64,000 nt of DNA. Origin: Adhaeribacter soli. GTDB lineage: Bacteria; Bacteroidota; Bacteroidia; Cytophagales; Hymenobacteraceae. The stretch is taken from positions 496,001 through 560,000 of the forward strand of contig NZ_VTWT01000001.1 of the NCBI RefSeq assembly GCF_008727925.1. Reading direction: 5' to 3'. Made by a program: the position numbers and the translations under genes. Shown one piece after another: positions 13,030-44,348 of this stretch; position 1 is the first letter of the stretch, and each line of letters opens with the position of its first letter. The notes beneath the pieces were generated by a model. The model did not search any database and was not told the origin of the DNA. It was given only the letters and a program-made list of their open reading frames with translations.

Positions 13030-13701
13030 TTAGCGGCCCGAAGTTGTTCCGCCGGTAGAGCCCGAAGTAGAGCCGCCACCGTCGGTAGTAGAACCTGAAG
13101 TCATGCCCCCGCCGGTAGAACCCGAAGTAGTACTACCGGTAGTAGAGCCGGAAGTGGTGCGGCCACCGGTAGTGCTTCGTCCGGTGGTGCTACCGGAAGT
13201 AGAGCCGGTGGTCATTGTACCGCTCGTGCTTCCGGAAGTAGAACCAGATGTGGAACCGGATGTGCTACGGCCACTGGTAGTACCGGAAGTACTGCCCGAT
13301 TTAGCTTTGCCGGATTTGTGCTTTTCCGATTTTTTATGATTGGAAGTGGTGCCGGAAGTAGTACCGCTGGTCGAATGGCCGGATGTTGTTCCGGAGGTCA
13401 TCGTGCCGCTGGTTGAACCTGACGTTGAACCAGAAGTCATGGTGCCGGAAGTTGTCCCGTTAGTTGTACTTCCATTGGTGGTTCCAGAGGTAGTGCGGCC
13501 CCCGTTCGTGCTGCCGGAAGTTGTGCCGGATGTCATACTGGTTGTGCTTCCTCCGGTGGTCCCGGAAGTAGTTCTGCCGGTTGTGCCTGAAGTGGTTCCC
13601 TGTTTAACTACGTTGCCGTTTTTAGAACCTGTGGCAGATGCCCCGGTGGAAGCAGCTGCCAGAAAAGAAAGTGCAAGAACCGAAAGGTAAATTTTCTTCA
13701 T
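13030..13701 (-). CDS. Exported Thr/Ser/Gly repeat protein (paralogue 1)
   Basis: A 223-residue protein with a Sec signal peptide (MKKIYLSVLALSFLAAASTGASA). The mature part is almost entirely T-S-G repeats (TSGTTSG, GSTSG, GMTSG), broken once near residues 122-140 by a Lys/His-rich patch, NHKKSEKHKSGKAKSG. It has no Cys, almost no aromatic residues and no hydrophobic core, so it should be disordered and secreted or periplasmic. A paralogue follows at 14096. The repeats are degenerate at DNA level, which argues for protein-level selection. Function unknown; a matrix, surface-hydration or glycan-acceptor role (dense Ser/Thr) are possibilities only. Confidence 0.75.
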   Translation of the reverse strand: MKKIYLSVLALSFLAAASTGASATGSKNGNVVKQGTTSGTTGRTTSGTTGGSTTSMTSGTTSGSTNGGRTTSGTTNGSTTNGTTSGTMTSGSTSGSTSGTMTSGTTSGHSTSGTTSGTTSNHKKSEKHKSGKAKSGSTSGTTSGRSTSGSTSGSTSGSTSGTMTTGSTSGSTTGRSTTGGRTTSGSTTGSTTSGSTGGGMTSGSTTDGGGSTSGSTGGTTSGR

Positions 13702-14095: not shown

Positions 14096-14713
14096 TTACC
14101 GGGTGGTGGATCCGGAAGTTGTGCCTGTGGTTGTCCGGCCGCTGGTAGAACCGCTGGTGGTACCTGAAGTCATTCCGGTGGTAGAACCTGAAGTCATTCC
14201 AGAGGTTGTTCCGGAGGTAGTACCAGATGTAGTTCCAGAGGTCATGCCGCCGGTAGTACCCGAAGTCATGGACGTAGTGGAACCGGAAGTAGTACCTGAT
14301 GTCATGGAAGTGGTGGAACCGGAAGTAGTACCTGATGTGGTTCCGGAGGTCATTCCAGTGGTAGAACCTGAAGTGGTACCAGAAGTAGTTCCGGAGGTCA
14401 TCCCAGTTGTAGAACCTGAAGTAGTACCTGACGTCATTCCTCCGGTAGTAGTTCCTGAGGTCATGCCGCCGGTTGTACCTGAAGTCATGCCGGAAGTAGA
14501 GCCGGAGGTGGTTCCGGAGGTCGTTCTACTTGTAGTACCGGAAGTAGTTCCACTGGTGGTGCCATACCCGGTGGTCGTTCGGGTATTGGTGGTAGTGCCG
14601 TTCATGGAGCCGGAGGTGGTTCCGTTCGAACCGTTATTACTCCGGGAGCAAGCCATAAAGGCCGACGAGAAAATTACCGAAGCGCTTAAAATGGTGAGGT
14701 AGGTTTTCTTCAT
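14096..14713 (-). CDS. Thr/Ser/Gly/Met repeat lipoprotein (paralogue 2)
   Basis: The ATG at 14711-14713 is chosen because it opens a signal peptide, MKKTYLTILSASVIFSSAFMAC, ending in a lipobox-like FMAC; the reading frame extends upstream without a signal. The 205-residue product would be a lipoprotein whose body is TSGTTSG, TSGSTTG and TSGMTSG repeats, richer in Met than paralogue 1. Several 20-30 residue blocks recur in tandem (GMTSGTTSGTTSGSTT), suggesting expansion by slippage. The lipid anchor versus cleavable signal of paralogue 1 suggests paired surface-bound and released forms, which is inference. Confidence 0.72.
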   Translation of the reverse strand: MKKTYLTILSASVIFSSAFMACSRSNNGSNGTTSGSMNGTTTNTRTTTGYGTTSGTTSGTTSRTTSGTTSGSTSGMTSGTTGGMTSGTTTGGMTSGTTSGSTTGMTSGTTSGTTSGSTTGMTSGTTSGTTSGSTTSMTSGTTSGSTTSMTSGTTGGMTSGTTSGTTSGTTSGMTSGSTTGMTSGTTSGSTSGRTTTGTTSGSTTR

Positions 14714-15184
14714 AGTTCTGTTTTTTAAAATAACGGGTGAAATTAAATTGCTTGAAGCATGGCTATTAGCCTTTTTGAAAGATGAGGAATTATACGGGGC
14801 AATTTTCAGGGTGTTAACCCAGAAAACCACCGGTTTATACTTAAATGCAGGTGAAAAACACGTAGTTAACAGCCTGAAACCCGGAATGTTTATATAAAAG
14901 GAACAGCGCTTTGGCTTTACTTTGACAATTGTTAATTAGCGGTTCTTTAGAAAAGCCCGGCCATTCTGAAATGTTATACTGCAATTCGTGGTAACTTGTC
15001 CGGTATTTAACTAAAAAATAAAACCGGTTCGTAAAATATTTATTTTGCTTATAACCTAAGGACGCGTAATTTGGTAAAATAAGGCAGGAAATTGCCGCCG
15101 GTTTCCTGTTCGCTCCGGAAATGAAGCTGCCGCTTTTATTCCCGGCTAAAAGAGGCAGACAACCCATTCTGAAAAACTATCCTT
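14714..15184. other. Intergenic region without a supported gene
   Basis: About 470 bp. A 108-codon minus-strand open frame exists at 14841-15167 but has no signal or family resemblance and looks accidental. The region should hold the promoters of the divergent repeat-lipoprotein and DCC genes; I see no clear consensus box. Confidence 0.45.
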
Positions 15185-15670: not shown

Positions 15671-16828
15671 TTATTCCTGCAACACCAATTCCCTTTGCTG
15701 GGGCTGCTCATAAACCAAACCGTTTTTCCGGAATTCCCCCATCAGCAGGTCCACTACTTTGCTGTAGGACTGTACCCCATCGGTCTGGCTGTTAGCTTTC
15801 AGGAATTTGTCGTGAATATACCGGCCGGCAATTTCTATCGGATTGTCGAAGCTATTCCAGTAGTTGCGGGTTGCTTCCAGGTCACAGATAACGCCCGGGC
15901 TAAGCATTTCACGGTGCCGGTAATAAGCTGAAGAATCTTCCTGGTAAAGCCGGTTAAGCGTATAGCGCACCCCCAGTAAACTGCCCGCATACCGAAAGGC
16001 CGGTTCCGGGTGAAGCTGGCAGGCCAGAAACGCTACAAAATTGGCTTCCGACTCGGAAGCAATGCCGATCTGGTGCGCCATTTCGTGGCTAACGGTTTCG
16101 GGAAGCAGGTAAGGCGGCGGATCCATGTTCACGTAGGCTTCGCCGGTGAAAGGGAAATAAATTCCTGCAATGCCCAGATAAGACATAATTTCCGGCGCCA
16201 GCGCGCTTTTTACCGAGGGCCGTTCATAAAGTAGCTCGGGATATTTTTGCGCAAGCGGATCGTAACCCAAAGGGGCTTTCGCCAGGATCTGCTCGTGGCT
16301 GAGCGGATAAGAAAAATGGATTAAGGAATCAGAAGTGAGTTGGCGGCGGCTTTCATTAGCCATTTCAATTAGGCGTGCACTCATCTCCGCCAGTTCGGTT
16401 CGTGTAAAGTCTTTCGTATCCAGTTTTACAATTTCATGAACAGGCCGGCGGTAATAATTCAGCCCCCACATAAAGTTGAACAGAAAGTAAAATCCCGAAA
16501 TAATGGTAAGGGTACCGAAACCAAAATCCAGGGCGAATTGTCTCTTCCCGATCGTTTTCTTTAAAAGTTTTTTTACGAGCCAGGCTATCCAGAACAGAAT
16601 TCCGGCAATGAAGCTGTAAAGCAGAAACTGCCCCAAGGGGAAGGGAGTCCAGCCAGAGGTAATACGCAAGGCCAGACTTAGGTGCTTATAAAAGGATCCC
16701 GTATAGAACTGTTCTATCCATTCCGTATTTTTAGTTACCAGCTGTAGCAGTAACATCTGCAGCGGAAGGCTTAGAAGCAGAAACGTTTTTCCTGCTTTGC
16801 CAAGTAATATTTCCTTTTTGGTCTTCAC
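15671..16828 (-). CDS. DUF3810 membrane-anchored putative zinc metallopeptidase
   Basis: A 385-residue protein with three N-terminal hydrophobic helices (about residues 14-32, 62-86, 103-122) and a C-terminal soluble domain. That domain has an HExxH zinc motif, HEMAH at residues 248-252, followed by ESEANFVAFLAC, where the downstream Glu is the probable third ligand. WGLNYYRRPVHE just after the last helix is typical of DUF3810. Peptidase activity is inferred from the motif only. It is convergent with the DCC gene. Confidence 0.88.
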   Translation of the reverse strand: MKTKKEILLGKAGKTFLLLSLPLQMLLLQLVTKNTEWIEQFYTGSFYKHLSLALRITSGWTPFPLGQFLLYSFIAGILFWIAWLVKKLLKKTIGKRQFALDFGFGTLTIISGFYFLFNFMWGLNYYRRPVHEIVKLDTKDFTRTELAEMSARLIEMANESRRQLTSDSLIHFSYPLSHEQILAKAPLGYDPLAQKYPELLYERPSVKSALAPEIMSYLGIAGIYFPFTGEAYVNMDPPPYLLPETVSHEMAHQIGIASESEANFVAFLACQLHPEPAFRYAGSLLGVRYTLNRLYQEDSSAYYRHREMLSPGVICDLEATRNYWNSFDNPIEIAGRYIHDKFLKANSQTDGVQSYSKVVDLLMGEFRKNGLVYEQPQQRELVLQE

Positions 16829-17283
16829 GCTGTTGATATGCCTTTTTATAATGTAAACACTCGAATGTTGTTTTTATTACTGGCGAAGCAAATATTTTAA
16901 CAAATGGATTCACCGGATTTCAGAAAAAAGCATAATGAAGTTCGCTCAGGCAAGTAAAGGCACTTGTTTTTATTCGTAAGCAGAAAGACATTCCTTTCAA
17001 TTTTTAAAAAAAAATTAGTTGCTGCTGAAATTCCGGAAACATTGGGGCAGATGTTCGGTTTAGTAGCCGGAACTCAACAGATAAAGGGGAGTCAAATAAC
17101 TTTTACAGGCTCGTTTCGAAGCTGGCTGACTTAGGCAACTTTAAAAAACAGGTTTATGAATATGTTTGATTACCTGTGTATTTTATTTAGTTTTTTTTTA
17201 AACCCTAAAAATAAAAGGTCGTTTAAGTACGAACGAACTTCATCTTCAACAATCTTTTTTTCAACCATAAAAAATCATTTAAA
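16829..17283. other. Intergenic region with leader of the Gly-Ser-Tyr protein gene
   Basis: About 455 bp between divergent genes, rich in T and A runs toward the right. It contains the candidate promoter listed at 17140-17168 and an A-rich leader ending in CATTTAAA just before the ATG at 17284. No gene was found. Confidence 0.5.
17140..17168 (+). promoter_or_regulatory. Candidate Bacteroidota-type promoter before the Gly-Ser-Tyr gene
   Basis: TATGTTTG at 17161-17168 matches the Bacteroidota -7 box TAnnTTTG exactly. TTTA at 17140-17143, 17 bp upstream, is one mismatch from the -33 TTTG. This would give a leader of about 105 nt. Confidence 0.4.
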
Positions 17284-18312
17284 ATGAGAGACAATCAGAA
17301 CAACCAAGGCAGGGGCCAGGGCTCACAGTACTCCAATGATTTTCACAGCGGTTCAGGATCGTCGCAAGGCGGTTATGGCTCCCGCGGCGGAAGTAGCTAC
17401 GGCGCTTCGTCCGGCGGTTACGGTTCTCATGGCGGCGGTTATGGCTCCATGGGCGGCGGCTCTTCTTATGGTGGAGGATATGGTGGCGGTTCTATGCGCG
17501 GTGACTATGGTTCCAGAGGCGGTTACGGTGGCGGCAGCATGAGCGGCGGCGGTTATGGATCACAGGGTGGTTATGGCAGCAATCAGGGTGGCTACAGCTC
17601 CGGAATGGGCAGTGGTGACTTCGGGTACAGCGGCTCTTCTTCCAGAGGATCGCATGGCCAGTCGTGGCAGGGTGGCTACGGCGGTGGCATGGGCAGCCAT
17701 GATCAAGGCTCCGGCAGCTTTGGCGGGTCTAATTTTGGCGGCGGTTCCGGCATGAGCGGCGGCTATGGCTCACGGGGAAATTACGGCGGTTCCGATATGG
17801 GATCACGCGGTGGCTTCGAATCGCAGGGCGATTGGGGACATGGCAGCTATGGCTCATCCAGAGGGGGCTCTAACTTTGGCGGCTCGGGCATGAGTGGCAG
17901 CTATGGTTCCGGTTCTATGGGTGGCGGCTACGGTTCTTCTTACGGCGGCGGCTCTATGGGTGGCGACTACGGCTCCAGAGGCAGCTATGGCGGAACAGGC
18001 ATGGGTTCTGGCATGGGAAGCCATGAATATGGTTCTGGTAACTACGGTGGCAGAAACATGGGCGGTTCTTCTTACGGCGGCGGTTCCGGCATGAGCGGCG
18101 GTTATGGCTCCGGTTCTATGGGCAACTATGGCGGCTCAGGAATGGGCAGGTCAGGAATGGGTGGCAGCTACGAATCAAGAGGCGGCTATGGTTCACATGG
18201 CGGTTCTTCTTACGGCAGCCGCTCCATGGGTGGCAGCAACTACGGCAACCAGGGCAGCAATTACGGCTCTTCTTCCGGCAGTGGCCGCAGCCAGTACGAC
18301 GACCAGTACTAA
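17284..18312 (+). CDS. Gly/Ser/Tyr-rich low-complexity protein (prion-like composition)
   Basis: A 342-residue protein without signal peptide, starting MRDNQNNQGRGQGSQYSND and then made of GGYGS, SYGG, GGSMGG and GSRGG units to the end (SGRSQYDDQY). Tyr and Arg are spaced regularly in a Gly/Ser background, with Met and a few Asp/His; there is no Cys and no hydrophobic core. The composition resembles the low-complexity domains of eukaryotic FUS/hnRNP proteins, which condense through Tyr-Arg contacts. It should be cytoplasmic and disordered. No RNA-binding domain is attached. A strong terminator follows. Function unknown; condensate, stress or desiccation roles are hypotheses. Confidence 0.8.
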   Translation: MRDNQNNQGRGQGSQYSNDFHSGSGSSQGGYGSRGGSSYGASSGGYGSHGGGYGSMGGGSSYGGGYGGGSMRGDYGSRGGYGGGSMSGGGYGSQGGYGSNQGGYSSGMGSGDFGYSGSSSRGSHGQSWQGGYGGGMGSHDQGSGSFGGSNFGGGSGMSGGYGSRGNYGGSDMGSRGGFESQGDWGHGSYGSSRGGSNFGGSGMSGSYGSGSMGGGYGSSYGGGSMGGDYGSRGSYGGTGMGSGMGSHEYGSGNYGGRNMGGSSYGGGSGMSGGYGSGSMGNYGGSGMGRSGMGGSYESRGGYGSHGGSSYGSRSMGGSNYGNQGSNYGSSSGSGRSQYDDQY

Positions 18313-18337
18313 TACCACTTTACATATAAATCCAGAA

Positions 18338-18368
18338 AGGCCTGCAATCAAAACTGCAGGCTTTTTTC
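18338..18368 (+). terminator. Terminator of the Gly-Ser-Tyr gene
   Basis: GCCTGCA (18340-18346) pairs with TGCAGGC (18355-18361) around an 8-nt loop, followed by a T6 run. It lies 25 bp past the stop. Confidence 0.85.
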
Positions 18369-18865
18369 GTTTTTAGGAATATTGTTTATAGATGATTGGC
18401 CAATGCAGAAATTGAATTATTAGTAAATAGACCTAACCTGCTAAGCCAGGATTCCAAAAAGCATTTATGTGTCGGGTAAACGCAGGCTGACGAAAGAAAC
18501 CAAGGATCAGCATTCCTTAATGCGTTTTAAACTAAAGCAATAGCTTGGCCTTCCTGTTAACTTCTCTTTTTTCTCTCTCTGCTCTTCATCCATAAAATTC
18601 TGTTACCTGCAATCCTGTTAATTTTTTAATCTGAGAATCCTGATTCAGACAAAAGGGCATGCATAAGGTAAGTTAACGAAAAGGCTAGGCTTTTAAGAGT
18701 AAAAACTAACAGCTTGCTGCTGAAGTAAATAAAGGATTAAATTTTCCGGGGTACAACTTTCGGGAGCAGTTCGGAGTAGGAGAGGCGGTTGCGGTTTGGG
18801 AAATTAACTCTAATTTCAGGCCGCACTGTTCTGTTCAATTCCTGTTTAAAACTTAAAATCACCAA
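18369..18865. other. Intergenic region without a supported gene
   Basis: About 500 bp between the terminator and the Nudix gene. A short minus-strand frame at 18737-18934 overlaps the Nudix start and is not credible. No strong palindrome was seen. Confidence 0.45.
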
Positions 18866-19387
18866 GTGAAAATTAAAGAACGAAAAACCGTATTCAATGG
18901 CTTTTTCCGGGTTGAAAATGTGACCCTCGAACACAAAGGCAATACCCTGGAACGCGACCTGGTAATTCCTAAAAACGGGGTAGCCGCCCTGGTATTCGAT
19001 ACGGTAAAAAAAGAGTACATCTTAATTGAGCAATACCGCCTGCCGGCCGAAAAGCCCCTGATCGAAATTGTAGCCGGCCTGGTAGACAAAGAGCACGAAA
19101 AACCCGAAGAAACTATTGTCCGGGAAATTGAAGAAGAAACCGGTTACGAAGTAGACAAACTGGAACCGATCCGCTGTTTTTACACCACACCCGGCAGCTA
19201 CGCCGAAAAGATCTGGCTGTATTATGCCGAAGTCAGCCATAAATCCGGCGAAGGCGGCGGCGTAGATTCCGAACACGAAGACATAAAAACGGTAACCTAT
19301 ACAGCTGAAAAACTCTTTGAAGCTGACTTTGAAGACGCCAAGACCCTGATAGCCGTGCTTTGGGAGAAAAGTAAAGCCTGTTGCTGA
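18866..19387 (+). CDS. Nudix hydrolase, ADP-ribose pyrophosphatase type
   Basis: A 173-residue protein starting at GTG. The Nudix box is GLVDKEHEKPEETIVREIEEETGY; REIEEETG is exact, while the spacing between the leading Gly and the first Glu is one residue longer than canonical. The N-terminal VTLEHKGNTLERDLV and the internal IEQYRLPAEKPLIEIVAG match the ADP-ribose/NDP-sugar pyrophosphatase group, which hydrolyses ADP-ribose to AMP and ribose 5-phosphate. The neighbouring disordered-protein gene lies 79 bp downstream and may be co-transcribed. Confidence 0.9.
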   Translation: MKIKERKTVFNGFFRVENVTLEHKGNTLERDLVIPKNGVAALVFDTVKKEYILIEQYRLPAEKPLIEIVAGLVDKEHEKPEETIVREIEEETGYEVDKLEPIRCFYTTPGSYAEKIWLYYAEVSHKSGEGGGVDSEHEDIKTVTYTAEKLFEADFEDAKTLIAVLWEKSKACC

Positions 19388-19466
19388 ACTGCTTCGGTAA
19401 TATTACGTACATACAGCTCTATGGCACGTTGCCACAGCAATTTTTCCATCACTTAAATTTAAAATT

Positions 19467-20129
19467 ATGAATCGTTTTGGAAGCAATAGTTTTGAAAGTG
19501 AAAATGAGCAGTACCCGGAAAACATCCGCATCGGGATGCAGTTAGCGGATAATAACCCGCGCCGCTGGAACGAAACGCCGAATTACCACAGCAACGAACA
19601 GCGCCACGGCCATACGCCGAATTACCGGCCCGATACGCCCCGCGATTACCGCTACGAAAACCGAAACCGCGAAACAAACCAGTTCCGGGGCGATAACCCG
19701 GTAAACCCGTACAACCGTTTCGACACCGGCAACCGCCACCACGATACCAGCATCTGGACTGAGCGGAACGCTTATAAGGACAGCGATTATCGTTACCGGA
19801 GCGGCAACCGCGGCTACTGGCACGAAGACTACGACGAAATGTACGAAGGCAAACATCATGACCAGCATCCGGGAGGCATTTTACAGCACATAGGCGAAGG
19901 AATCCGGGAAGGCTGGAACAATATGTTTAACCGCGACCAGCGCAACCAGGGAGAAGAATTAAGACGCCAGGATGCGCGTTATTACGAAAACCAGAACCAG
20001 CAGCGCCGTTGGCCATCTTCCCATTGGGATGAAGACAGGCACCGCCGGCACGAACAGGAACGTAAAAACCTGGGCGCCGAATGGCATAATTCCGGACCCG
20101 ACCACCGCGACGAAGATTTCCGTTTTTAA
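19467..20129 (+). CDS. Hydrophilic Arg/Asn/Tyr-rich disordered protein with amphipathic core
   Basis: A 220-residue protein rich in Arg, Asn, Tyr, His and Asp, without signal peptide or Cys. Most is predicted disordered (NYRPDTPRDYRYENRNRET). One ordered island at residues 136-154, GGILQHIGEGIREGWNNMF, has the pattern G-x-L-x-x-I-G-x-x-I-x-x-x-W and aligns with residues 226-242 of the protein encoded at 43016-43873, so the two appear to be distant relatives. The hydrophilic, charged composition recalls desiccation or stress proteins, but no known family was recognised. Confidence 0.78.
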   Translation: MNRFGSNSFESENEQYPENIRIGMQLADNNPRRWNETPNYHSNEQRHGHTPNYRPDTPRDYRYENRNRETNQFRGDNPVNPYNRFDTGNRHHDTSIWTERNAYKDSDYRYRSGNRGYWHEDYDEMYEGKHHDQHPGGILQHIGEGIREGWNNMFNRDQRNQGEELRRQDARYYENQNQQRRWPSSHWDEDRHRRHEQERKNLGAEWHNSGPDHRDEDFRF

Positions 20130-28667: not shown

Positions 28668-30137
28668 ATGGACTTAAAGCAACCTTCCTTCCGGCATTGC
28701 GGCGAAAATACGGTGTTTCTGAACCAACTGGAGCACGCAGGTAAAAAATACATCAGGCTGTGGTACAAGCCTAACCGGTTTATTACCGAACGCCTTAAAA
28801 GCGCCTCCTGGGTAAAATACAGCCAGACCTACAAATGCTTTGTAATGCACCATTCGCCCCAAACCATTGAGCTTACGCACATGTGTTTTCAGGGCCTGGC
28901 AGCAGTCAGCACTCGGTACCTGTACCGCCCTAAACGGCTTCGGCCCGACAAGCAAACCCCGGTGCTGGCGGCCGGAAGCCTGATACCGGTGCTAACCAAA
29001 GTGACCGATCTGCCGGTGGTGCGACTGCAGGCCCTGCTTACCGAAAGCGGCACCCTGCTTGGTATAACCTTTAAATACAACGAGGCCATTTATAGCCGTT
29101 TAAAAAACAGCAAGGTAGCTAAGTGGCAGCCTGCACAAAAGTGCTTTGCCATACTGCCGGGAGCGCCTAATATTAAAGTGCTGCTCACTGAGCTCTGCCG
29201 GCTGGCCCACATCTGGCTAAGCCAGGACCTAAAAGTACAGGACATGGCCTTGCTGCGGGAGCTCTGGGAGCAGACCTATGAAAAAGGCCCACAGTATATC
29301 AGCTGCCCGCTACCTTACCTGGAAAAACTTTTTCTGTTAAACTACAGCCCCAGCACCATTCGCACCTACCACGGCCTGTTGCTGCGCTTCCTTAACAGCC
29401 ATGCCATACGGGGGCTGGAGGAAATAAACGCTTTTACCGAGGAAGGTCTGAACCAGTACCATCGCGCCATGGTGCAAACCCAGACCCATTCCTGCTCTTT
29501 GGTAAATCAGAGTATAAATGCGATAAAGTTTTATTACCAACGGGTGCTGATGCGCCCCGAAGTGCAGCTGAACAACATAGAGCGGCCCGAAAAGCCCGAA
29601 CGCCTTCCCACCGTGCTGAGTAAAGATGAAGTAAGTCGCATTCTAAAGGCCACCGAGAACCAGAAGCACCGCTGCCTGATGCAGCTGCTTTACGCCGGTG
29701 GCTTGCGCATAGGAGAGGTTATAAATTTGAAAATAACCGATGTGCAAAGCGCCCGTAACCTGCTACTGATCCGGGGCGGTAAAGGCAAAAAAGACCGTAC
29801 CACGCTGCTCTCGCAAAAACTACTGGAAAGCCTGCGCGAATATTATAAAGCTTACCGGCCCAAAGAGTGGTTGTTCGAAGGGCAAAATGGCGGGCAGTAC
29901 ACCGTAGCAAGCGTTCGCAACGTTTTCCGCGGTTGCCTGGAACGCGCCAGCGTAAAAACCAAGGCCACGCCCCACACTCTGCGCCATTCCTTTGCTACCC
30001 ACTTGCTGGAGCAGGACACTGACCTACGTTACATCCAAGTGCTTCTGGGGCATCGCAACAGCAAAACAACTGAAATTTACACCCACGTTACCACCCACTC
30101 CCTGGAAAAAATAACCAGCCCCTTGGATAATCTGTAA
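28668..30137 (+). CDS. Tyrosine recombinase with duplicated N-terminal module; candidate cassette integrase
   Basis: The ATG at 28668 is chosen because the upstream extension runs through the operator palindromes. The 489-residue product has the catalytic set Arg347 (GGLRIGE), Lys372 (GGKGKKD), His436/Arg439 (HTLRH), His462 (GHRN) and Tyr471 (IYTHV). A SAM-like core-binding domain spans about 215-300. Residues 1-190 hold two copies of a module (about 28-60 and 130-163) sharing I-x-x-RLK-x-S and KCF; related modules occur singly in Bacteroidota integrases as I recall them. The ~30-residue insertion typical of IntI before the HxxR motif is absent. The cassette array starts 137 bp downstream in the same orientation. 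Host-like base composition, unlike the cassettes. Confidence 0.9.
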   Translation: MDLKQPSFRHCGENTVFLNQLEHAGKKYIRLWYKPNRFITERLKSASWVKYSQTYKCFVMHHSPQTIELTHMCFQGLAAVSTRYLYRPKRLRPDKQTPVLAAGSLIPVLTKVTDLPVVRLQALLTESGTLLGITFKYNEAIYSRLKNSKVAKWQPAQKCFAILPGAPNIKVLLTELCRLAHIWLSQDLKVQDMALLRELWEQTYEKGPQYISCPLPYLEKLFLLNYSPSTIRTYHGLLLRFLNSHAIRGLEEINAFTEEGLNQYHRAMVQTQTHSCSLVNQSINAIKFYYQRVLMRPEVQLNNIERPEKPERLPTVLSKDEVSRILKATENQKHRCLMQLLYAGGLRIGEVINLKITDVQSARNLLLIRGGKGKKDRTTLLSQKLLESLREYYKAYRPKEWLFEGQNGGQYTVASVRNVFRGCLERASVKTKATPHTLRHSFATHLLEQDTDLRYIQVLLGHRNSKTTEIYTHVTTHSLEKITSPLDNL

Positions 30138-30240
30138 CAAAGCTATATATTGGCCATACCCATGCTACCTGACCTGCATCTTATTAAAAAACGGCATTAT
30201 TACCTGGCTAAAATCTGGTAAACCAACCTTCGCCCAAATT

Positions 30241-30280
30241 GCAGATAAGCGTAGTAGTGTTTTATATACAGTAGTTAGAG
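30241..30280 (+). other. Candidate attI-like primary insertion site
   Basis: GTTAGAG at 30274-30280 is the first site of the array and is exactly complementary to CTCTAAC at 30569-30575. Unlike the nine downstream sites, it is preceded by A (AGTT instead of CGTT) and no hairpin partner was found upstream. The preceding 35 bp include GTAGTAGTG and AGTAGTTAG, which could be recombinase-binding direct repeats. Position, 137 bp after the recombinase stop, fits attI. Confidence 0.55.
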
Positions 30281-30568
30281 CACAATTATAGAGAAAAGAA
30301 TTGATCGGCAGACAAGCTAAATAAGAAACGGCGGCAAGTTTAAACAGCTGCAGATCTTATTCATAAGCATTCTGCCAGCCGGCCAGCTTCAGCCATGGAT
30401 TGACGCAAAATGCGTGATAGTATAATCCGAAAAAAAGAATTTCTTCGAAGTCTGGATAATTAAAAATGGTAGGAATTCCGGCAGAAAAAGTCAGTAGAAT
30501 GGTAGGGAAACCTGCTCAAAAACTCTGAAGCACTTGCCTGGAAACGGAAGAAAAAAGAAAAAATCGGG
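30281..30568 (+). other. Cassette 0 body, no evident gene
   Basis: About 290 bp between the first GTT site and the first hairpin site, with no reading frame of credible length or start. It could be a gene-free cassette carrying a promoter or small RNA, or a decayed one. Being first in the array, it is where a promoter driving later cassettes would be expected; no clear TAnnTTTG box was seen. Confidence 0.5.
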
Positions 30569-30701
30569 CTCTAACCAAAGCTATACGTCAGGCGGGTTTT
30601 GTTACCAAACCTAAATTGTTTAACTTTCTGCAAACGGCTAGGCGGCAGGAAAGTGATCAGCAAGAAAAATCCCCGCCCGTCGCATAGCCGAGACGTTAGC
30701 T
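30569..30701 (+). repeat. attC-like site 1 (133 bp)
   Basis: Outer arms CTCTAAC (30569-30575) and GTTAGCT (30695-30701). Inside, GCTATACGTCAGGCGGG pairs with CCCGCCCGTCGCATAGC with few mismatches, leaving a loop of about 60 bp. It is the longest site of the array and resembles sites 4 and 7 in its CTATACG/GCATAG words. Confidence 0.8.
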
Positions 30702-30715
30702 ATAACTTTTAATTT

Positions 30716-31087
30716 ATGATGAATAAAATAAATAGGTTTACCTCTAAATATGGGAGCGTAGTTATGATCTCTGTAGGTATCTTATTTATTTGTATGGGTT
30801 TATATTTTCAGTTTAACGATATTCAGGATTTTGAAACCTATAATCACAGGAGTAGGACGATAACAAAAACTCCAAATTACATCAGTTATTTTATTGGTAT
30901 TGGGGCAATTCTAATAGGAATTAAAAATAAGTGGATCTTTAAGAAAAAGCCAAAGTTTAAAGATAGGCAAGGGAAATTAATAATGTTAAAGTCTGAAAAT
31001 GATTTGACGGATACAAAACATAAAAGGAGAAAAAATAAGGTTATCAAATTGGACAATGATATTACCTTACGAATTGATAAAGAATAG
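30716..31087 (+). CDS. Cassette 1: small membrane protein
   Basis: A 123-residue A+T-rich gene product with two hydrophobic helices (about residues 13-31 and 57-73) and a basic, Lys-rich cytosolic tail (KKKPKFKDRQGK, KHKRRKNK). Starts with tandem ATGs (30716, 30719), 14 nt after site 1. The stop lies 4 nt before site 2. No family recognised; no toxin or antitoxin signature seen. Confidence 0.7.
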   Translation: MMNKINRFTSKYGSVVMISVGILFICMGLYFQFNDIQDFETYNHRSRTITKTPNYISYFIGIGAILIGIKNKWIFKKKPKFKDRQGKLIMLKSENDLTDTKHKRRKNKVIKLDNDITLRIDKE

Positions 31088-31091
31088 CTTT

Positions 31092-31144
31092 AGCTAACCA
31101 AAGCTAAAAATTAGCTATGCCATTTTTTAGCCCAACCGTTGGTA
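31092..31144 (+). repeat. attC-like site 2 (53 bp)
   Basis: AGCTAAC (31092-31098) matches cassette 1's leading GTTAGCT. Inner arms GCTAAAAAT and ATTTTTTAGC form the stem; the closing GTTGGTA (31138-31144) begins cassette 2. Confidence 0.82.
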
Positions 31145-31157
31145 AAAATTAAAATAA

Positions 31158-31709
31158 ATGAAAATTATCCTTATTCTGCTATTAAACTTAATTATCACGC
31201 TAATAACCAATTGTCAGAATGTTGATTTAAAATATGTGCATTCTTCACTTAAGCAAGCAGTAAAGGAATTACAAGCACAAGATATAGATACAGTGTTTAT
31301 TTACCATGCCTATTGTACTGGATGTGAAAGTAGTAATAGTACAACAAACTGTAATGGTTTTATGGATGCAAGAATACTTTGGAAAAAACAAGGTAAGTCT
31401 TATTCACAAAATGTATTCTGTGATGGAATGAAAACCAAACCAATATTAACTAATTCAAAGGCTTTTAATTTCTTCTTGAATAATGTAAATACTCTAACCG
31501 AAAGAAGAACTCTGCCTAAAGGTAGATTCTATCCGCCCGTTCCTGTTCACCATTATGGAGAGGACTTTTATTTAGTTATAAAACAGAAATGGTACAATAC
31601 GAACTTGAGGGAGCCCCAAAGAGAAAATAAACACTGGAAGCAATATAGCTGGATAGAACCAACAATTAAACTTTCTGACTTGAATAAAGCTGAAGTAAAC
31701 AAAAAATAA
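31158..31709 (+). CDS. Cassette 2: secreted or lipid-anchored Cys-containing protein
   Basis: A 183-residue protein with a signal peptide, MKIILILLLNLIITLITNC, whose Cys19 could be a lipidation site although the -1 residue Asn is atypical. The mature part has YHAYCTGCESSNSTTNCNG and later FCDG, so disulfides or a metal site are possible. Starts 13 nt after site 2 and ends 4 nt before site 3. No family recognised. Confidence 0.7.
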   Translation: MKIILILLLNLIITLITNCQNVDLKYVHSSLKQAVKELQAQDIDTVFIYHAYCTGCESSNSTTNCNGFMDARILWKKQGKSYSQNVFCDGMKTKPILTNSKAFNFFLNNVNTLTERRTLPKGRFYPPVPVHHYGEDFYLVIKQKWYNTNLREPQRENKHWKQYSWIEPTIKLSDLNKAEVNKK

Positions 31710-31713
31710 CTTT

Positions 31714-31778
31714 TACCAACACTGTGTATAACAAACCTTTGCTACGCTGCGGCTTGTCATACACGCGGCCCGTTGTGT
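31714..31778 (+). repeat. attC-like site 3 (65 bp)
   Basis: TACCAAC (31714-31720) is the exact complement of cassette 2's GTTGGTA, extending to about 10 nt (TTTTACCAAC). Inner arms GTGTAT/ATACAC and ACAAACC/GGCTTGT form the stem with one unpaired base; closes with GTTGTGT (31772-31778). Confidence 0.83.
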
Positions 31779-31798
31779 GCTATAAAAACAATATAAAA

Positions 31799-32104
31799 AT
31801 GGCTCTTGATTTTTACCGACTTGACAACAAAGAATACCTATTTGGATTAGAAGACAAACAGTTTGAAGAGCTAAGTGGAATCTTTACAGATTTTCAATAT
31901 CAAACAGGTCTGATAATTGACCAGAATGGCGACTTTAAAATGACAGTAGAAAACCAAGAAGCTATCATTAGTATTATAGACCGATATATCGACAAGAATG
32001 ATTTGAATAAGAACAAATCTAAAACTTTAACAATTATAGAATTTAGGACACATCTAAAAGATTGCTCTCAGAGAAAGTTAGAGTTACAGTTGATTGGAGA
32101 TTAA
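31799..32104 (+). CDS. Cassette 3: small acidic cytosolic protein
   Basis: The ATG at 31799 is chosen because an earlier in-frame start would read through the attC-like site. The 101-residue product (MALDFYRLDNKEYLFGLEDKQFEELSG...) is soluble with one Cys and mixed alpha/beta character. It begins 20 nt after site 3 and ends 21 nt before site 4. No family recognised; its size and acidity resemble small immunity-type proteins, which is only a guess. Confidence 0.68.
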   Translation: MALDFYRLDNKEYLFGLEDKQFEELSGIFTDFQYQTGLIIDQNGDFKMTVENQEAIISIIDRYIDKNDLNKNKSKTLTIIEFRTHLKDCSQRKLELQLIGD

Positions 32105-32125
32105 AAAAAAATGAAGAATTACAAC

Positions 32126-32179
32126 ACACAACCACACCTATACGGCAGCTACGCCGCCGCATAGCCCAGTCCGTTAGCA
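32126..32179 (+). repeat. attC-like site 4 (54 bp)
   Basis: ACACAAC (32126-32132) complements cassette 3's GTTGTGT exactly (8 nt with the next base). Inner arms CTATACGGC and GCCGCATAG form a stem with one mismatch around AGCTACGCC; closes with GTTAGCA (32173-32179). Confidence 0.83.
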
Positions 32180-32191
32180 ATAAGTTAGATT

Positions 32192-32935
32192 ATGAATAAG
32201 AATATATTTGAATTAGCCGCAGAGGCAATGGAAGAAGAACAGCATAAAGCTTATCTAGGTTATCCAGCCTCGATGAAATATCTTCTTCTGAGCACTTCTA
32301 CTGATTCTAAAATTATTGGAAGAAAGTGGCCACAAACAGATTACATTGACCTCTCGCTCGCTCACCAGCTTAAATACCACAATCTGCACCCGGGCACAAT
32401 CGCATTCGATAAAATTGAGCTTTACAAATCTTCAAAATTAACGGACTTAATTAGCACGGCAGCTATCTCGGCCCATGCCTTTGTATTAAGCAAAAAAGCC
32501 CTCGACGTGTTTAGGTACTTTAAATTAGGCAACCATAAAATATATCCAGCAACTGTTTACCACAAACAAAACGCTCACGAGTACGGCATTTTACATTTCG
32601 TCAATGACTTGCACGGCGGATTGGATTTTAGCAAATCTAAATTCTATGTTGCTAACCTCCTCGGTGGATACGAATTTGACATAGATGTTACTGATGAGGA
32701 AGATTATAAAAACAAACAACAGCTTGTAAAAACAGCCCAATACCCGAATACTAAGAAGTGGTGGTTTGTGCGACTGAAGTGGGGAGTATTTAAAAAAGGA
32801 GTTTCTCAACCAGATATATTCAACATCTCAAGTAGCAATATAGAGCCATATGTAAGTTATGACCTTGCTCAAGCAGTCGTTGAAAACGGATTAACTGGTT
32901 TTGAGTTTAAAAGGGCATATAATTTACAAGATTAG
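32192..32935 (+). CDS. Cassette 4: possible immunity-type protein (DUF1629/Imm-like)
   Basis: A 247-residue soluble protein, the largest of the array. The middle (IAFDKIELYKSSKLTDLISTAAISAHAFVLSKKALDVFRYFKLGNHKIYPATVYHK) recalls DUF1629/Imm11-Imm43 immunity proteins of polymorphic toxin systems; the match is from memory and weak. No toxin gene is adjacent. Starts 12 nt after site 4 and ends 12 nt before site 5. Base composition is less A+T-rich than the other cassettes. Confidence 0.7.
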   Translation: MNKNIFELAAEAMEEEQHKAYLGYPASMKYLLLSTSTDSKIIGRKWPQTDYIDLSLAHQLKYHNLHPGTIAFDKIELYKSSKLTDLISTAAISAHAFVLSKKALDVFRYFKLGNHKIYPATVYHKQNAHEYGILHFVNDLHGGLDFSKSKFYVANLLGGYEFDIDVTDEEDYKNKQQLVKTAQYPNTKKWWFVRLKWGVFKKGVSQPDIFNISSSNIEPYVSYDLAQAVVENGLTGFEFKRAYNLQD

Positions 32936-32947
32936 AAGAAAACCAGT

Positions 32948-33011
32948 TGCTAACAAGGTATTCACAAAACCCTTGCTCCGCTACAGGCTTTGCAAATACT
33001 AAACGTTAGGC
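32948..33011 (+). repeat. attC-like site 5 (64 bp)
   Basis: TGCTAAC (32948-32954) complements cassette 4's GTTAGCA exactly. Inner arms GTATT/AATAC and ACAAAACC/GGCTTTGC form the stem with an unpaired base; closes with GTTAGGC (33005-33011), the one arm that fits classical GTTRRRY fully. Confidence 0.84.
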
Positions 33012-33033
33012 ATAAGTACAAATTAAAATTTAA

Positions 33034-33447
33034 ATGAATAAGAAGAGGTATATCGATTATATCATTCTTAAACTTCTCGAACACTTTCCTGATATAGCTG
33101 ATAATTTAAAATTAAAAAGTGGTAATAATTCTGATATTGAATTATCCAGTAAAAGAGGCAAGATTAAATTATTGATTTTTATAGTAGAAGATGAGAATGA
33201 AGTAACTGTAGGTTTTCAAGCCGGGGAAGAACAATTTGGTTGGCATGTACATATGGACATGTTCGGTGCGAAAAATATAGAAGAAATGATAAACGTTGCA
33301 ATTGAGTTAGTAAAAGAAATAATTAGTGATCAACAAGTAATTATTTATACAAGTGATTTTGGATATTTCATAAGTGGAACTGAACAACAGCTTAAAGAAT
33401 TGCAAGAGGAAGAAGGCGTTGAGTTTTACTATTGGAGTGAATTATAA
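33034..33447 (+). CDS. Cassette 5: acidic cytosolic protein of unknown family
   Basis: A 137-residue acidic protein (MNKKRYIDYIILKLLEHFPDIADNLKL...). It reads as a compact alpha/beta domain: a first helix, strands GKIKLLIFIVEDENEVTVGFQAG, a FGWHVHMDMFGAKN segment, a helix (IEEMINVAIELVKEIIS) and more strands. No membrane segment. The layout recalls small immunity-like proteins but no family was recognised. Stop is 9 nt before site 6. Confidence 0.7.
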   Translation: MNKKRYIDYIILKLLEHFPDIADNLKLKSGNNSDIELSSKRGKIKLLIFIVEDENEVTVGFQAGEEQFGWHVHMDMFGAKNIEEMINVAIELVKEIISDQQVIIYTSDFGYFISGTEQQLKELQEEEGVEFYYWSEL

Positions 33448-33456
33448 AATCCTTAA

Positions 33457-33520
33457 GCCTAACAAGGTATTTACAAAACCTTTGCTACGCTTCAGGCTTT
33501 GCAAATACTAGACGTTAGGG
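33457..33520 (+). repeat. attC-like site 6 (64 bp)
   Basis: GCCTAAC (33457-33463) complements cassette 5's GTTAGGC exactly. The interior is nearly identical to site 5: GTATTT/AAATAC and ACAAAACC/GGCTTTGC; closes with GTTAGGG (33514-33520). Confidence 0.85.
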
Positions 33521-33532
33521 TTAATAAAAACA

Positions 33533-34204
33533 ATGAAAAAACTATACATTCTATCAATGGTATTACTCCCTTTTGCTTCCTGCAGCCAAGATGAGAAACC
33601 TTCTGATAAAGCTTTTAAGGTTTTTAATGAGGGGGTGAAATTTTCTCTTGATGCTGGAAATGCTGCTTCTATAAATGATTATGAAAAAGCAAGTCAACTG
33701 AATAAGAAGGCCATAGAAAAATTTAAAGAAACTCTAACAATAGATTCTACACATTCTTGGGCAGTCAGTGCTCTTGCCCATAGTCAGTACTTGGAAAAAA
33801 ATTATAGAGAGGCAATTCCTAATTTCGAAAAAGCTATTAAAGTGCAACCAAATTTTGCTGTTAACTATCAGGAAATGGGAATGTGTAAAATCAATTTAGG
33901 TGAAATTGAAGATGGCAAAAGGGATTTAGTTAAAGCATTTTCTTTAGACCCATCGGTAGAGCTGAAAACCAATACAATATTAGATCTGCAAGATATTGGT
34001 AGATTAGCTTTCGATTACGGGGATGGTTATATTAACCAAGGGGAAAAAGATAAAGGAGAAGGTTATAAAAGGTTTGCGATAGCTGTATTCTTGCTAGCCT
34101 TCGATTTTGATAAAAATAAAGAATCTGCTAAACTAGTTTCTGATTATGCTTTAAAAATCGGTGACAAAGATTTGTCAGAGAAGTTCAAATTGATTGCACA
34201 ATAA
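33533..34204 (+). CDS. Cassette 6: TPR-containing lipoprotein
   Basis: A 223-residue protein with a lipoprotein signal, MKKLYILSMVLLPFASC (lipobox FASC). Residues 60-140 contain two to three TPR-like repeats (HSWAVSALAHSQYLEKNYREAIPNFEKAIKVQP, then NFAVNYQEMGMCKINLGEIEDGKRDLVKAFSLDP). TPRs mediate protein contacts; here at the membrane or cell surface. Starts 12 nt after site 6. Confidence 0.8.
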   Translation: MKKLYILSMVLLPFASCSQDEKPSDKAFKVFNEGVKFSLDAGNAASINDYEKASQLNKKAIEKFKETLTIDSTHSWAVSALAHSQYLEKNYREAIPNFEKAIKVQPNFAVNYQEMGMCKINLGEIEDGKRDLVKAFSLDPSVELKTNTILDLQDIGRLAFDYGDGYINQGEKDKGEGYKRFAIAVFLLAFDFDKNKESAKLVSDYALKIGDKDLSEKFKLIAQ

Positions 34205-34213
34205 AATTACTTA

Positions 34214-34267
34214 CCCTAACCACACCTATACGTCAGCTTCGCCGCCGCATAGCCAAATCCGTTAGCA
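34214..34267 (+). repeat. attC-like site 7 (54 bp)
   Basis: CCCTAAC (34214-34220) complements cassette 6's GTTAGGG exactly (8 nt). The interior CACACCTATACGTCAGC...GCCGCATAGCC is almost the same as site 4; closes with GTTAGCA (34261-34267). Confidence 0.84.
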
Positions 34268-34297
34268 ATAATTAAAAGTCATAAATCCTTCGTAAAA

Positions 34298-34813
34298 ATG
34301 ATTAGAAATACAAGTGTATTGTTCTTTTTTTTATTTGCTTCGGTGCTCAATTGTGGAAGCAAATCGAAAAGGAACCAAAACTTTTATGGTTGGTATTATG
34401 CCCCAAAATCAGATATATCGATTGATTTATTACCACCAAATATTTATAAGTTAAAAGAAACAAAGGCAATGGACTTTGATAATTTTATAGAATATGAATT
34501 ATCTACAGGTACATTTCAAAAAGTTAATAATGAATTAAGGCTGAAAGAGAGTAAGACAGAAAAATATATGTCCTTAATTATTTCTAATGATGAAATTTTG
34601 GTAGCGAAAAACGTAAAAAAGTTGAAGCCAAAGGATACGCTAGTAGTTGGAATGAAGTACTATAATAATGGCAATAAAAAATTTCAAGGCAAGTGGGAAA
34701 ATTATAGAAAAGAATATTCTTGGCAATATTGGGACGAGAATGGTAACGAGAAATATTACATTAACTTTAAAAATGGGATACCGATTGATACGGTAAAGCC
34801 AAGGAAAAAATAA
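34298..34813 (+). CDS. Cassette 7: small lipoprotein
   Basis: A 171-residue protein with signal MIRNTSVLFFFLFASVLNC, Cys19 as probable lipid site. The body is Lys/Tyr-rich, with a C-terminal part (YYNNGNKKFQGKWENYRKEYSWQYWDENGNEKYYINFKNGIP) resembling the MORN-like YYxNGxKK repeats common in Bacteroidota antitoxin-like and surface proteins. Has the longest leader of the array (30 nt). Stop is 4 nt before site 8. Confidence 0.72.
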   Translation: MIRNTSVLFFFLFASVLNCGSKSKRNQNFYGWYYAPKSDISIDLLPPNIYKLKETKAMDFDNFIEYELSTGTFQKVNNELRLKESKTEKYMSLIISNDEILVAKNVKKLKPKDTLVVGMKYYNNGNKKFQGKWENYRKEYSWQYWDENGNEKYYINFKNGIPIDTVKPRKK

Positions 34814-34817
34814 GTGT

Positions 34818-34881
34818 TCCTAACACTGTATTTAGAAAACCTTTGCTTCGCTGCAAGCTTTCCAAATATCAACCGTTAGCG
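34818..34881 (+). repeat. attC-like site 8 (64 bp)
   Basis: TCCTAAC (34818-34824) matches the complement of cassette 7's GTTAGCA at 6 of 7 positions, the only imperfect pair. The interior is of the site 5/6 type (GTATTT, AAAACCTTTGCTTCGC, AAGCTTTCCAAATA); closes with GTTAGCG (34875-34881). Confidence 0.8.
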
Positions 34882-34899
34882 TTAATTTGAAACTAAATA

Positions 34900-35367
34900 A
34901 TGAAATTAAAGAATTCTATTTTTTTAGTCTTTACTATACTCTTGGTTAATTGTAAATCCAGAAACGAAGAAAAATCAGTTGATATTGGATTAATGGGAAT
35001 AAAAGAAAGCCAGGCACCAGAGGTACCTATTAATTCAAAAAAAACTGGTTTACAAGCAGACTTAGAGAAATACGATGGCTTTTATAGTTCAAATGAAAGC
35101 ACTGATGGAAAAATAACTCCTGAGAATTTACCTAAAGAACTAATCAATTACAAAAAGGCTAATATAAAATCTTTCAATATAGAATACTTAGATAGATTGA
35201 ATAGTGGTTTCATTTTAACATACAATATTGATTACAGTGGCTATAATGCCTTAGTAGTTTCAACTTTAGACCAGAATTATAATTTGGTTGATTACCGAAC
35301 ATATCCAAATGGACAAGGTTTTAAAGATTTTAAAAAAGATACAATTTCGCTTCTTACTTATATATAA
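34900..35367 (+). CDS. Cassette 8: small lipoprotein
   Basis: A 155-residue protein with signal MKLKNSIFLVFTILLVNC and Cys18 as probable lipid site, then a polar stretch and a C-terminal alpha/beta part (GFILTYNIDYSGYNALVVSTLDQNYNLVDYRTYPNGQG). No family recognised. The reading frame stops 118 nt before site 9, unlike the tight packing of other cassettes, and a second short frame fills that gap, so either two genes share the cassette or the 3' end was frameshifted. Confidence 0.7.
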   Translation: MKLKNSIFLVFTILLVNCKSRNEEKSVDIGLMGIKESQAPEVPINSKKTGLQADLEKYDGFYSSNESTDGKITPENLPKELINYKKANIKSFNIEYLDRLNSGFILTYNIDYSGYNALVVSTLDQNYNLVDYRTYPNGQGFKDFKKDTISLLTYI

Positions 35368-35389
35368 GACCTTAATTACGGTGGAGCTT

Positions 35390-35491
35390 ATGCATCCTAA
35401 TCCAGACAATGAACCTGAATTTTCGACTGACGGAATTAGCAAAGAAGAATTAGAAATATCAGAAGCCTTAAAATTGAAAAACAGACGCTAA
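35390..35491 (+). CDS. Cassette 8: possible 33-residue second gene or displaced C-terminus
   Basis: ATG at 35390 after a GGTGGAG stretch; product MHPNPDNEPEFSTDGISKEELEISEALKLKNRR is polar and acidic. Its stop codon lies inside the CGCTAAC arm of site 9. It may be a small gene or the C-terminus of the preceding lipoprotein after a frameshift. Confidence 0.35.
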   Translation: MHPNPDNEPEFSTDGISKEELEISEALKLKNRR

Positions 35492-35538
35492 CAAAAGCTA
35501 AAAAACATTAAAACGTGCCTTAGCCCAGAACGTTAGCG
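35486..35538 (+). repeat. attC-like site 9 (53 bp), end of array
   Basis: CGCTAAC (35486-35492) complements cassette 8's GTTAGCG exactly (8 nt). The interior AAAAGCTAAAAA...TTAGCCC resembles site 2. Closing arm GTTAGCG (35532-35538). No matching CGCTAAC arm follows, so the array ends here. Confidence 0.82.
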
Positions 35539-35626
35539 GTAATCTACTGATTCAATCAGAGTACATCAAAAAAACAGTTTACTTTAGAAGGAAGTTTAGA
35601 ATAGAATTTTAGCATTACTACCAGCT

Positions 35627-35992
35627 ATGAACAATTCAACCACCCACCACCTGCGTATCGCAAACATGACCTTTGCTTCGGTTTACCCGATGTACCTGGC
35701 TAAAGTAGAGAAAAAAGGCCGAACGAAAGATGAATTACACCAGGTCATCGAATGGTTAACCGGCTACGATAACGCCAATCTGCAGAGGCTGATCGAAGAT
35801 AAAGCCACGTTCGAAACGTTTTTCCAGAACGCATCTTTAAACCTCAATGCGAACCTGATCACGGGCATGATCTGCGGCTACCGGATTGAGGAAATTGAGA
35901 ATCCGTTAACGCAGCAGGTCCGGTATTTAGATAAGCTGGTAGATGAACTGGCAAAAGGCAGAAAAATGGAGAAGATCCTGCGCGCTTCATAG
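35627..35992 (+). CDS. DUF2200 family protein
   Basis: A 121-residue soluble protein matching DUF2200 (MTFASVYPMYLAKVEKKGRTKDELHQVIEWLTGYD, then FFQNASLNLNANLITGMICGYRIEEIENPLTQQVRYLDKLVDELAKGRKMEKIL). Function unknown. It lies just beyond the last array site, but its base composition is host-like and no closing arm follows, so I treat it as the right chromosomal flank. Confidence 0.87.
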   Translation: MNNSTTHHLRIANMTFASVYPMYLAKVEKKGRTKDELHQVIEWLTGYDNANLQRLIEDKATFETFFQNASLNLNANLITGMICGYRIEEIENPLTQQVRYLDKLVDELAKGRKMEKILRAS

Positions 35993-36069
35993 GTTACCGG
36001 GAGGCTTTAAAATTCCAACTGGCTTTGAACAAAAAACAAGTTCCAATATTTTCAAATCCCCAAATTCCT

Positions 36070-43873: not shown

Positions 43874-44348
43874 TGTTTTTACGGTTTAAAAGTGAATGAT
43901 CTGATTATGCTTTGTGAAAGCAGTGCAATCCTTTACGGAACTTTCAAACCCAGGTTTATTCCTTCTTAGCGCTTATACAGCCTTTATTGGAAAAGTAATA
44001 CGGACTTTCGGGAAGTGCTCCTATTTTCAAAAAAAATCTTCAATAATTTATATGCCGGTTGTTAGCCTTTAAAATGATCCATGGAATAAAATGCTGGTGT
44101 TATGATTGGAATGGCACAATCTGCCTGATAAATCCGGGAGAAAAGAGGCCTGAAAGAACTAATTTACGCCCAAAGCGGTTATACCAACTTCCATACGGGA
44201 GGCAGCGCTACGGAAAATAAATTGAGTAGGTTGCGAAAAAATCAAAGATTGTTTTAAAATTTATATATTTAGTTATTAAAGTACAAAACTTTTCTTTGAA
44301 GAATACATGTTTGGGAAGGGAAATCAAAACAAACTAAACGAAGAATAT
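43874..44348. other. Intergenic region between divergent genes
   Basis: About 475 bp without a supported gene. Its right third is A+T-rich and probably holds the promoter of the lipoprotein at 44349. No strong repeats were seen. Confidence 0.45.

Follow-up and report, generated by a model that had tools for sequence, protein, structure and literature searches.

A short Gly/Ser/Tyr-rich protein of Adhaeribacter soli: a putative disordered stress protectant, and longer proteins like it in Hymenobacteraceae

What use could a bacterium have for a whole protein composed largely of glycine, serine and tyrosine? Such a protein, referred to below as the short GSY protein, is encoded at 17284–18312 on the forward strand of the 64 000-nt stretch of Adhaeribacter soli DNA analysed here (the window). 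The initial annotation had taken its gene for a well-expressed single gene and compared its sequence with that of eukaryotic FUS. The low-complexity domains of FUS, EWS and TAF15 (the FET proteins) have a composition of the Gly-Ser-Tyr type, and evenly spaced aromatic stickers are a mark of these domains.

The short protein and its orthologue

The coordinates, the frame and the length of 342 aa had been given correctly; the description of all residues as Gly/Ser/Tyr with Arg and Met was overstated, as Gly, Ser and Tyr sum to 73% of the protein and to 83% with Arg and Met added. The residue make-up is G 40.1%, S 23.1%, Y 9.9%, M 5.6% and R 4.4%, followed by N and Q (4.1% each), D (2.9%), H (2.0%) and F (1.8%). 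The repeat units named in that description are present (GYGS nine times, SYGG four times). The 42 aromatic residues (Y/F/W, 12% of the total) are spaced with a gap CV of 0.37 against a shuffle mean of 0.90, a value as low being seen in none of 5000 shuffles; the orthologue in A. terrigena has a gap CV of 0.48. The claim of regular Tyr-Arg spacing thus holds for the aromatics but not for arginine, with weak evenness in A. soli (1.8% of shuffles are equally even) and none in A. terrigena (26.5%).

We observed no match of the short GSY protein in Pfam or NCBIfam (E-value up to 1) or among PDB sequences (E-value ≤1), the last being a search in which low-complexity bias correction may mask matches; the earlier statement that no globular domain is attached agrees with this. 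The N-terminus, MRDNQNNQGRGQ, is hydrophilic, with no signal peptide or hydrophobic stretch visible by eye, again as had been stated. Modeling with AlphaFold2 gave a mean pLDDT of 38.9, with 0 of 342 residues at ≥70 and 320 of 342 at <50; since the alignment held two sequences, low pLDDT alone is weak evidence of disorder, and composition is the stronger argument. On these grounds the protein is predicted to be disordered.

The expectation of high expression found partial backing in codon usage: in an index with ribosomal-protein reference, 31 of the 49 other ORFs of the window score as high as the short gene when all codons are counted, whereas with the index restricted to Gly/Ser/Tyr codons, where the gene is biased toward ribosomal-protein codons, only 5 of 49 reach it. 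No Shine-Dalgarno sequence was seen by eye upstream of the gene, and a search of Rfam over 16800–18900 gave no match. The strong terminator that had been pointed out is there: an intrinsic terminator at 18334–18377 (forward strand) has a 13-pair stem (18334–18367) followed by a T-rich tail, and a hairpin is found at the corresponding place 3′ of the A. terrigena gene.

The syntenic orthologue in A. terrigena BT258 (family Hymenobacteraceae; L006:4223–5179) has 318 aa. Alignment of the two proteins gave 177 identical residues of 267, 16.7 sd above 300 shuffles. For the gene pair we obtained pS of 0.73 and pN of 0.30, with 81, 79 and 160 changes at codon positions 1, 2 and 3, though the pS/pN ratio is rough because the degeneracy of Gly/Ser-rich codons lifts third-position change and pS is near saturation. 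The N-terminus, the C-terminus and inner blocks common to the pair point to selection on the protein. An untranslated frame had been named as an outcome that would refute the initial annotation; the syntenic orthologue, pS/pN and the conserved blocks argue instead for a translated gene under selection.

The gene order HTTM, Thr/Ser/Gly protein, DCC1, GSY, NUDIX, 220-aa protein and PDE-like gene is kept in both species. Two further genes are present in the A. soli window, one for DUF3810 and one for another Thr/Ser/Gly protein, and A. terrigena has one additional ORF before NUDIX. The NUDIX gene downstream (18866–19387, forward strand; 70% identical in A. terrigena, with order kept) is given here as context, with no part assumed for it in the mechanism discussed below. 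The 220-aa charged, N/R-rich protein (19467–20129, forward strand) has no Pfam match and is 47% identical to its A. terrigena orthologue. On the other side of the short gene the reverse strand encodes two proteins built of Thr/Ser/Gly repeats (TSGTTSG), at 13030–13701 and 14096–14713 (the start of the latter taken as the ATG at 14713), both with an N-terminus of exported type; A. terrigena has one such gene there. Elsewhere in the window we saw short tandem repeats of 7 bases at 54281–54486 (TTGATTG and AACAATC arrays) and a region of low GC content at 30001–36000 (0.34–0.35 versus about 0.44–0.53 in neighbouring 2-kb steps), possibly acquired DNA.

Longer proteins of the same kind

Relatives were sought in 204 genomes of the family, grouped by genus as g1 (Adhaeribacter, 2 genomes), g2 (8), g3 (120), g4 (16), g5 (50, including P. 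ruber) and g6 (8). A profile from the short GSY protein recognised two genomes, both of g1; relaxing the cutoff to E-value ≤10 added four genomes, each with one weak match to an unrelated ORF. Where profiles failed, a DNA pattern for GYG[ST]xGGYG succeeded, with matches in 61 of the 204 genomes (g1 2/2, g2 0/8, g3 3/120, g4 2/16, g5 50/50, g6 4/8); its backward control gave single matches too, in a number of genomes. Twelve of the pattern places were examined. They revealed a 552-aa protein in A. soli and GSY/Q-rich proteins of 514–716 aa in g4 and g5. In g6 the pattern marked a charged protein; of two g3 genomes, one has a protein of exported type at this place and the other lacks such an ORF. 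Class-wide, the pattern was present in 13 of 395 genomes, A. soli included. Inspection by eye of one place in each of the 12 others showed six Wzc-type kinase tails, five proteins of exported or lipoprotein type and one 64-aa ORF, none of them of the GSY kind.

The neighbours of the long gene in A. soli are EEP (Exo_endo_phos), GldH, an NmrA-like gene and, oriented divergently, a CSD cold-shock gene. With EEP used as an anchor, matches were obtained in 200 of 204 genomes at 1e-30. The 48 loci taken in (g1 2/2, g2 7/8, g4 16/16, g5 23/50) exclude the weaker matches of g3 and g6, which may represent other copies; the eighth g2 genome, 78% complete, had no EEP match. A long low-complexity ORF lies beside EEP in all 48 loci (g1 2/2, g2 7/7, g4 16/16, g5 23/23), thus in four genera of Hymenobacteraceae. 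The long ORFs are GSY-rich, and N/Q-rich in g2, where four of the seven proteins were detected at a lowered threshold. The NmrA-like gene is on the far side of the long gene in 39 of 48 loci (two in g1, three in g2, 13 in g4 and 21 in g5), and the divergent CSD gene stands between the long gene and EEP in g1 (2/2), g2 (7/7) and g5 (23/23) and at 0 of 16 loci in g4.

The long proteins have 533–756 aa, the first 150 residues being richer in Lys and poor in Tyr. In 46 of 48 the aromatics are spaced more evenly than in 99% of shuffles when gaps are counted from the first one beyond residue 80. The motif GG[SA]Y[NGS][DE]E is carried by 45 of 48 long proteins and by neither of the short ones. A start resembling M-x-[DE]-[NTS] was also counted in 45 of 48, with the best-fitting start codon chosen, so that this count is permissive and partly circular. 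Short and long proteins have in common the wording GYGSQGGYG, a start of the form M-x-[DE]-N-[QE], even aromatics and an upstream motif described below. Shared words were counted with a view to possible descent of the short protein from a long one. The short GSY protein has fifteen 9-mers in common with g4 long proteins against a simulated mean of 4.3, a number equal to the maximum of 300 simulations; in 7-mers shared with the long protein of A. soli (nine versus simulated 5.9 ± 3.1) it is within range. The description as a single gene is right in that the short gene has its own terminator, but its product does not stand alone: it belongs to a group of disordered proteins resembling one another, in which it is the short form.

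A site AGGAG, GGAG or AAGGA was present ≤20 nt from the start in 39 of 48 long genes (0/7 in g2) versus 2 of 50 window ORFs, a control made low by mechanical starts.

In the open-licence literature we found no publication on whole bacterial proteins of GSY composition with even aromatic spacing, which on that basis seem little described, and no published name for the long GSY/Q-rich protein of the EEP locus.

A motif upstream of short and long genes

The initial annotation had also proposed a good promoter. Sites of sigma-70 type upstream of the short gene are near chance level (5 versus 2.8 ± 1.4 in shuffles). The housekeeping Bacteroidota promoter, TAnnTTTG, was rejected as a candidate: the window has one such box, at −124, which is absent in A. 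terrigena, and 2 of 48 long genes have one. The better candidate is a putative ECF-type promoter at 17200–17225 (forward strand), AAACC-N15-CGTTTA, with AACC at −83 from the start codon, a distance equal in A. terrigena. Promoters read by ECF sigma factors typically have AAC and CGT blocks, and the general form AACC-N15-CGTWT resembles them.

Within 400 nt upstream of the long genes this motif was observed in 39 of 48 cases (g5 22/23, g4 15/16, g1 2/2), the g5 consensus being AATAACC...CGTATAGc; it is upstream of both short genes as well. The chance of an occurrence is 0.011 per region with spacings of 14–17 allowed. The exact form is missing in one g4 gene, one g5 gene and all seven g2 genes, the last having looser AAAC...CGTA variants. 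When spacings from 8 to 24 were tried, spacing 15 gave 41 of 50 regions and each other spacing 0 or 1, while the reverse strand at spacing 15 gave 0 of 50; the motif was not seen upstream of the neighbouring NmrA (0/39) and EEP (0/8) genes. As long genes within one genus share ancestry, the 41 occurrences are not independent; still, the two blocks recur in three genera, and the short genes carry different spacer letters. A promoter-like site by itself at the short gene is indecisive; it is conservation of the site that is decisive, and at the short gene both the fixed spacing of the two blocks and their conservation in the orthologue were observed.

How specific the site is within the window was assessed with a scoring matrix trained on the sites of 39 long genes and on none of the short genes. 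Among the upstream regions of 62 window ORFs the short gene ranked third with 9.4 (median 2.15), after the ORF at 43016–43873 (12.8) and an exported-type ORF at 47654 (11.6). Window-wide, 12 other sites score above or level with the short-gene site, and 3% of shuffles of the gene's own 400 nt reach its score; the exact motif occurs once in the 64 kb versus 1.66 expected. The gene of the 220-aa protein at 19467 came fifth with 6.6, from a site other than the one aligned with A. terrigena. The latter, a weak promoter-like site at 19384–19413 (forward strand; GAACT-N15-CGTACA), scores 5.9, second-best in its own upstream region, and has a counterpart, GAACC-N15-CGTACT, at a similar place in A. 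terrigena.

The product of the ORF at 43016–43873 (reverse strand), 285 aa long and of low complexity, contains a GFLGNIGHKISNVWDRF-acidic module and has no match in NCBIfam or Pfam. A promoter-like site, AAACC-N15-CGTAAA, is situated 56 nt upstream at 43930–43959 (reverse strand) and has the second-best score of the window. The GFLGNIGHKISNVWDRFVGNDEDEERR module of this protein (the GFLGNIG module) resembles, by eye, proteins of P. ruber (L128) and Pontibacter (L269); upstream of the P. ruber gene there was no such site. Another high-scoring promoter-like site, TGTAACTTCGTGGTAAAATATTGGTATAGC, is at 47602–47631 (forward strand), 23 nt upstream of the exported-type 276-aa ORF at 47654. A possible promoter of the 14096–14713 ORF, AACAC-N15-CGTATA, falls within 14789–14818 (reverse strand), and no site of this type was found at the A. 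terrigena counterpart.

Genome-wide, RAACC-N15-CGTWTA has 10 sites in A. soli and 9 in A. terrigena versus 10 and 14 for the backward control (19 versus 24), and AACC-N15-CGTWTA has 61 sites in two g4 and two g5 genomes versus 72. With totals at or below the control, the motif is not enriched, and many single matches are probably due to chance. Eight of the 19 Adhaeribacter sites fall inside ORFs of 100+ aa; of the 60 g4/g5 sites examined, 10 fall within ORFs of 120+ aa, and for another 8 no ORF begins in the next 300 nt. The orthologous places common to both Adhaeribacter genomes are upstream of short GSY, long GSY, uvrA and ppk, the families of the last two having been assigned on incomplete sequence pieces. 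At uvrA the motif is 35 nt upstream within an identical 26-mer, which could be plain conservation; at ppk it is 29 and 27 nt upstream, and the spacer letters differ. One site seen in A. terrigena alone precedes a DJ-1/PfpI gene and falls within a reverse-oriented ORF of 102 aa.

In all four g4/g5 genomes scanned, the motif is carried by long GSY genes and by DUF892 (YciF-type) genes, 21–56 nt upstream of the latter (one of these genes identified in Pfam, the others by BLAST to it), and in three of four by a gene for a small exported-type protein. Genes with the motif in one genus were DPBB_1 (RlpA-like) in both g5 genomes and three others, without an evident stress role, in both g4 genomes; CsbD, DUF4142, SPW and DUF937 were single-genome cases. 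Three more low-complexity proteins, recognised by eye, also have it (two in one g5 genome and one in the other). In other bacteria YciF and CsbD are part of stress responses; their g4/g5 genes have AACC-N15-CGTWTA upstream in common with the GSY genes, while the protein families differ.

Possible role of the short protein

The common upstream motif strengthens the idea that the short gene answers to stress conditions. We suggest, at slightly less than even odds (a probability of about 0.45), that the short GSY protein is a stress-induced cytoplasmic disordered protectant that self-associates. Behind this reading stand computed results: a conserved coding frame, the composition of the protein and the spacing of its aromatics, a prediction of disorder, the constant locus of the long genes and the motif that short and long genes have in common upstream. 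If the motif is a promoter, an alternative sigma factor of ECF type would act under stress at AAACC-N15-CGTTTA, and the short gene would be transcribed. Its product would stay in the cytoplasm and accumulate, with evenly spaced Tyr, Phe and Trp as stickers, scattered Arg, and Gly/Ser as spacer. In a cytoplasm concentrated by drying, osmotic stress or cold the protein could self-associate, and the condensate or gel so formed might shield proteins or nucleic acids; it may act alongside the long GSY/Q-rich protein of A. soli, whose gene lies elsewhere on the chromosome and seems to be under control of the same stress-type promoter.

A role of Tyr and Arg in FUS is described in PMC5927716. By analogy, given the similar composition, even aromatics and Arg-Gly motifs, the short GSY protein could work like FET domains. 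It differs from them in having no RRM (0 Pfam families at E-value ≤1) and no PDB match, in being bacterial and in being a whole protein rather than a domain. Hence, 'FUS-like' is apt for the sticker pattern and not for family kinship, and a FET protein proper was rejected. An RRM-type Gly-rich RNA-binding protein was rejected as well, as there is no RRM match anywhere in the A. soli genome.

A somewhat unlikely alternative, which draws on the same promoter-motif and disorder evidence, is a hydrophilin-like protectant: a soluble, disordered protein induced by stress that would act by water retention and molecular shielding with no condensates. Hydrophilins are defined, in PMC4190154, by glycine >6%, GRAVY <−1 and mean hydrophilicity >1, and the published pool has up to 16.8% Gly and hydrophilicity of −0.3 to 1. 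The short GSY protein has 40% glycine and a GRAVY of −1.004 (−1.217 in the orthologue), the latter barely under the limit; mean Hopp-Woods hydrophilicity, assumed to be the scale of that paper, is −0.05 and 0.07 for the two short proteins, far below 1. As two of the three values agree and mean hydrophilicity does not, we do not class it as a hydrophilin proper. Hydrophilins of Acinetobacter aid survival of drying, according to PMC13232832. In general properties the short GSY protein is like hydrophilins, DtpA and DtpB of Acinetobacter among them, being predicted disordered, glycine-rich, of low hydropathy and likely stress-linked; it is far richer in Gly than the published pool and has even aromatics, and 12% of evenly spaced aromatics would be needless for simple water-binding.

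We regard as unlikely a scaffold linked to nucleic acids, a loose analogue of FUS granules in which RG/RGG and Tyr repeats would bind RNA or DNA and gather cold-shock protein or repair factors. Ten RG and five RGG motifs in the short GSY protein, the divergent CSD gene beside its long relative in g1, g2 and g5, and the motif upstream of uvrA are in keeping with such a scaffold. However, the protein has no RNA-binding domain and a net charge of about zero, g4 loci are without the cold-shock gene, and the short gene does not adjoin one.

Gly/Ser/Tyr-rich composition recalls silk and cement proteins, and proteins of exported type are encoded nearby, yet an exported adhesive or structural surface protein is highly improbable given the hydrophilic N-termini, with no hydrophobic stretch by eye, of the short proteins and of the long ones examined. 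A functionless drifting repeat ORF, to which low complexity, length changes by indels (342 versus 318 aa) and recognition of the short form in only 2 of 204 genomes might point, is just as improbable in view of the excess of third-position change, the conserved blocks, the upstream block conserved at equal distance and the terminator in both species.

The self-associating protectant could be part of something wider. It is possible, though rather doubtful, that Hymenobacteraceae have a stress system not yet described, with several disordered proteins of evenly spaced Tyr that would be switched on by an alternative sigma factor together with repair and polyphosphate genes and would yield a protective condensate, an independent bacterial counterpart of the FUS type. 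Its disordered members would, just as tentatively, be the short GSY protein, the long GSY/Q-rich protein, the GFLGNIG-module protein and perhaps the protein at 19467. In four genera the GSY proteins make up a set whose locus is stable, and an upstream motif is common to three of these genera; with such a set and motif at hand the use of FUS-type stickers in bacterial stress survival becomes directly testable.
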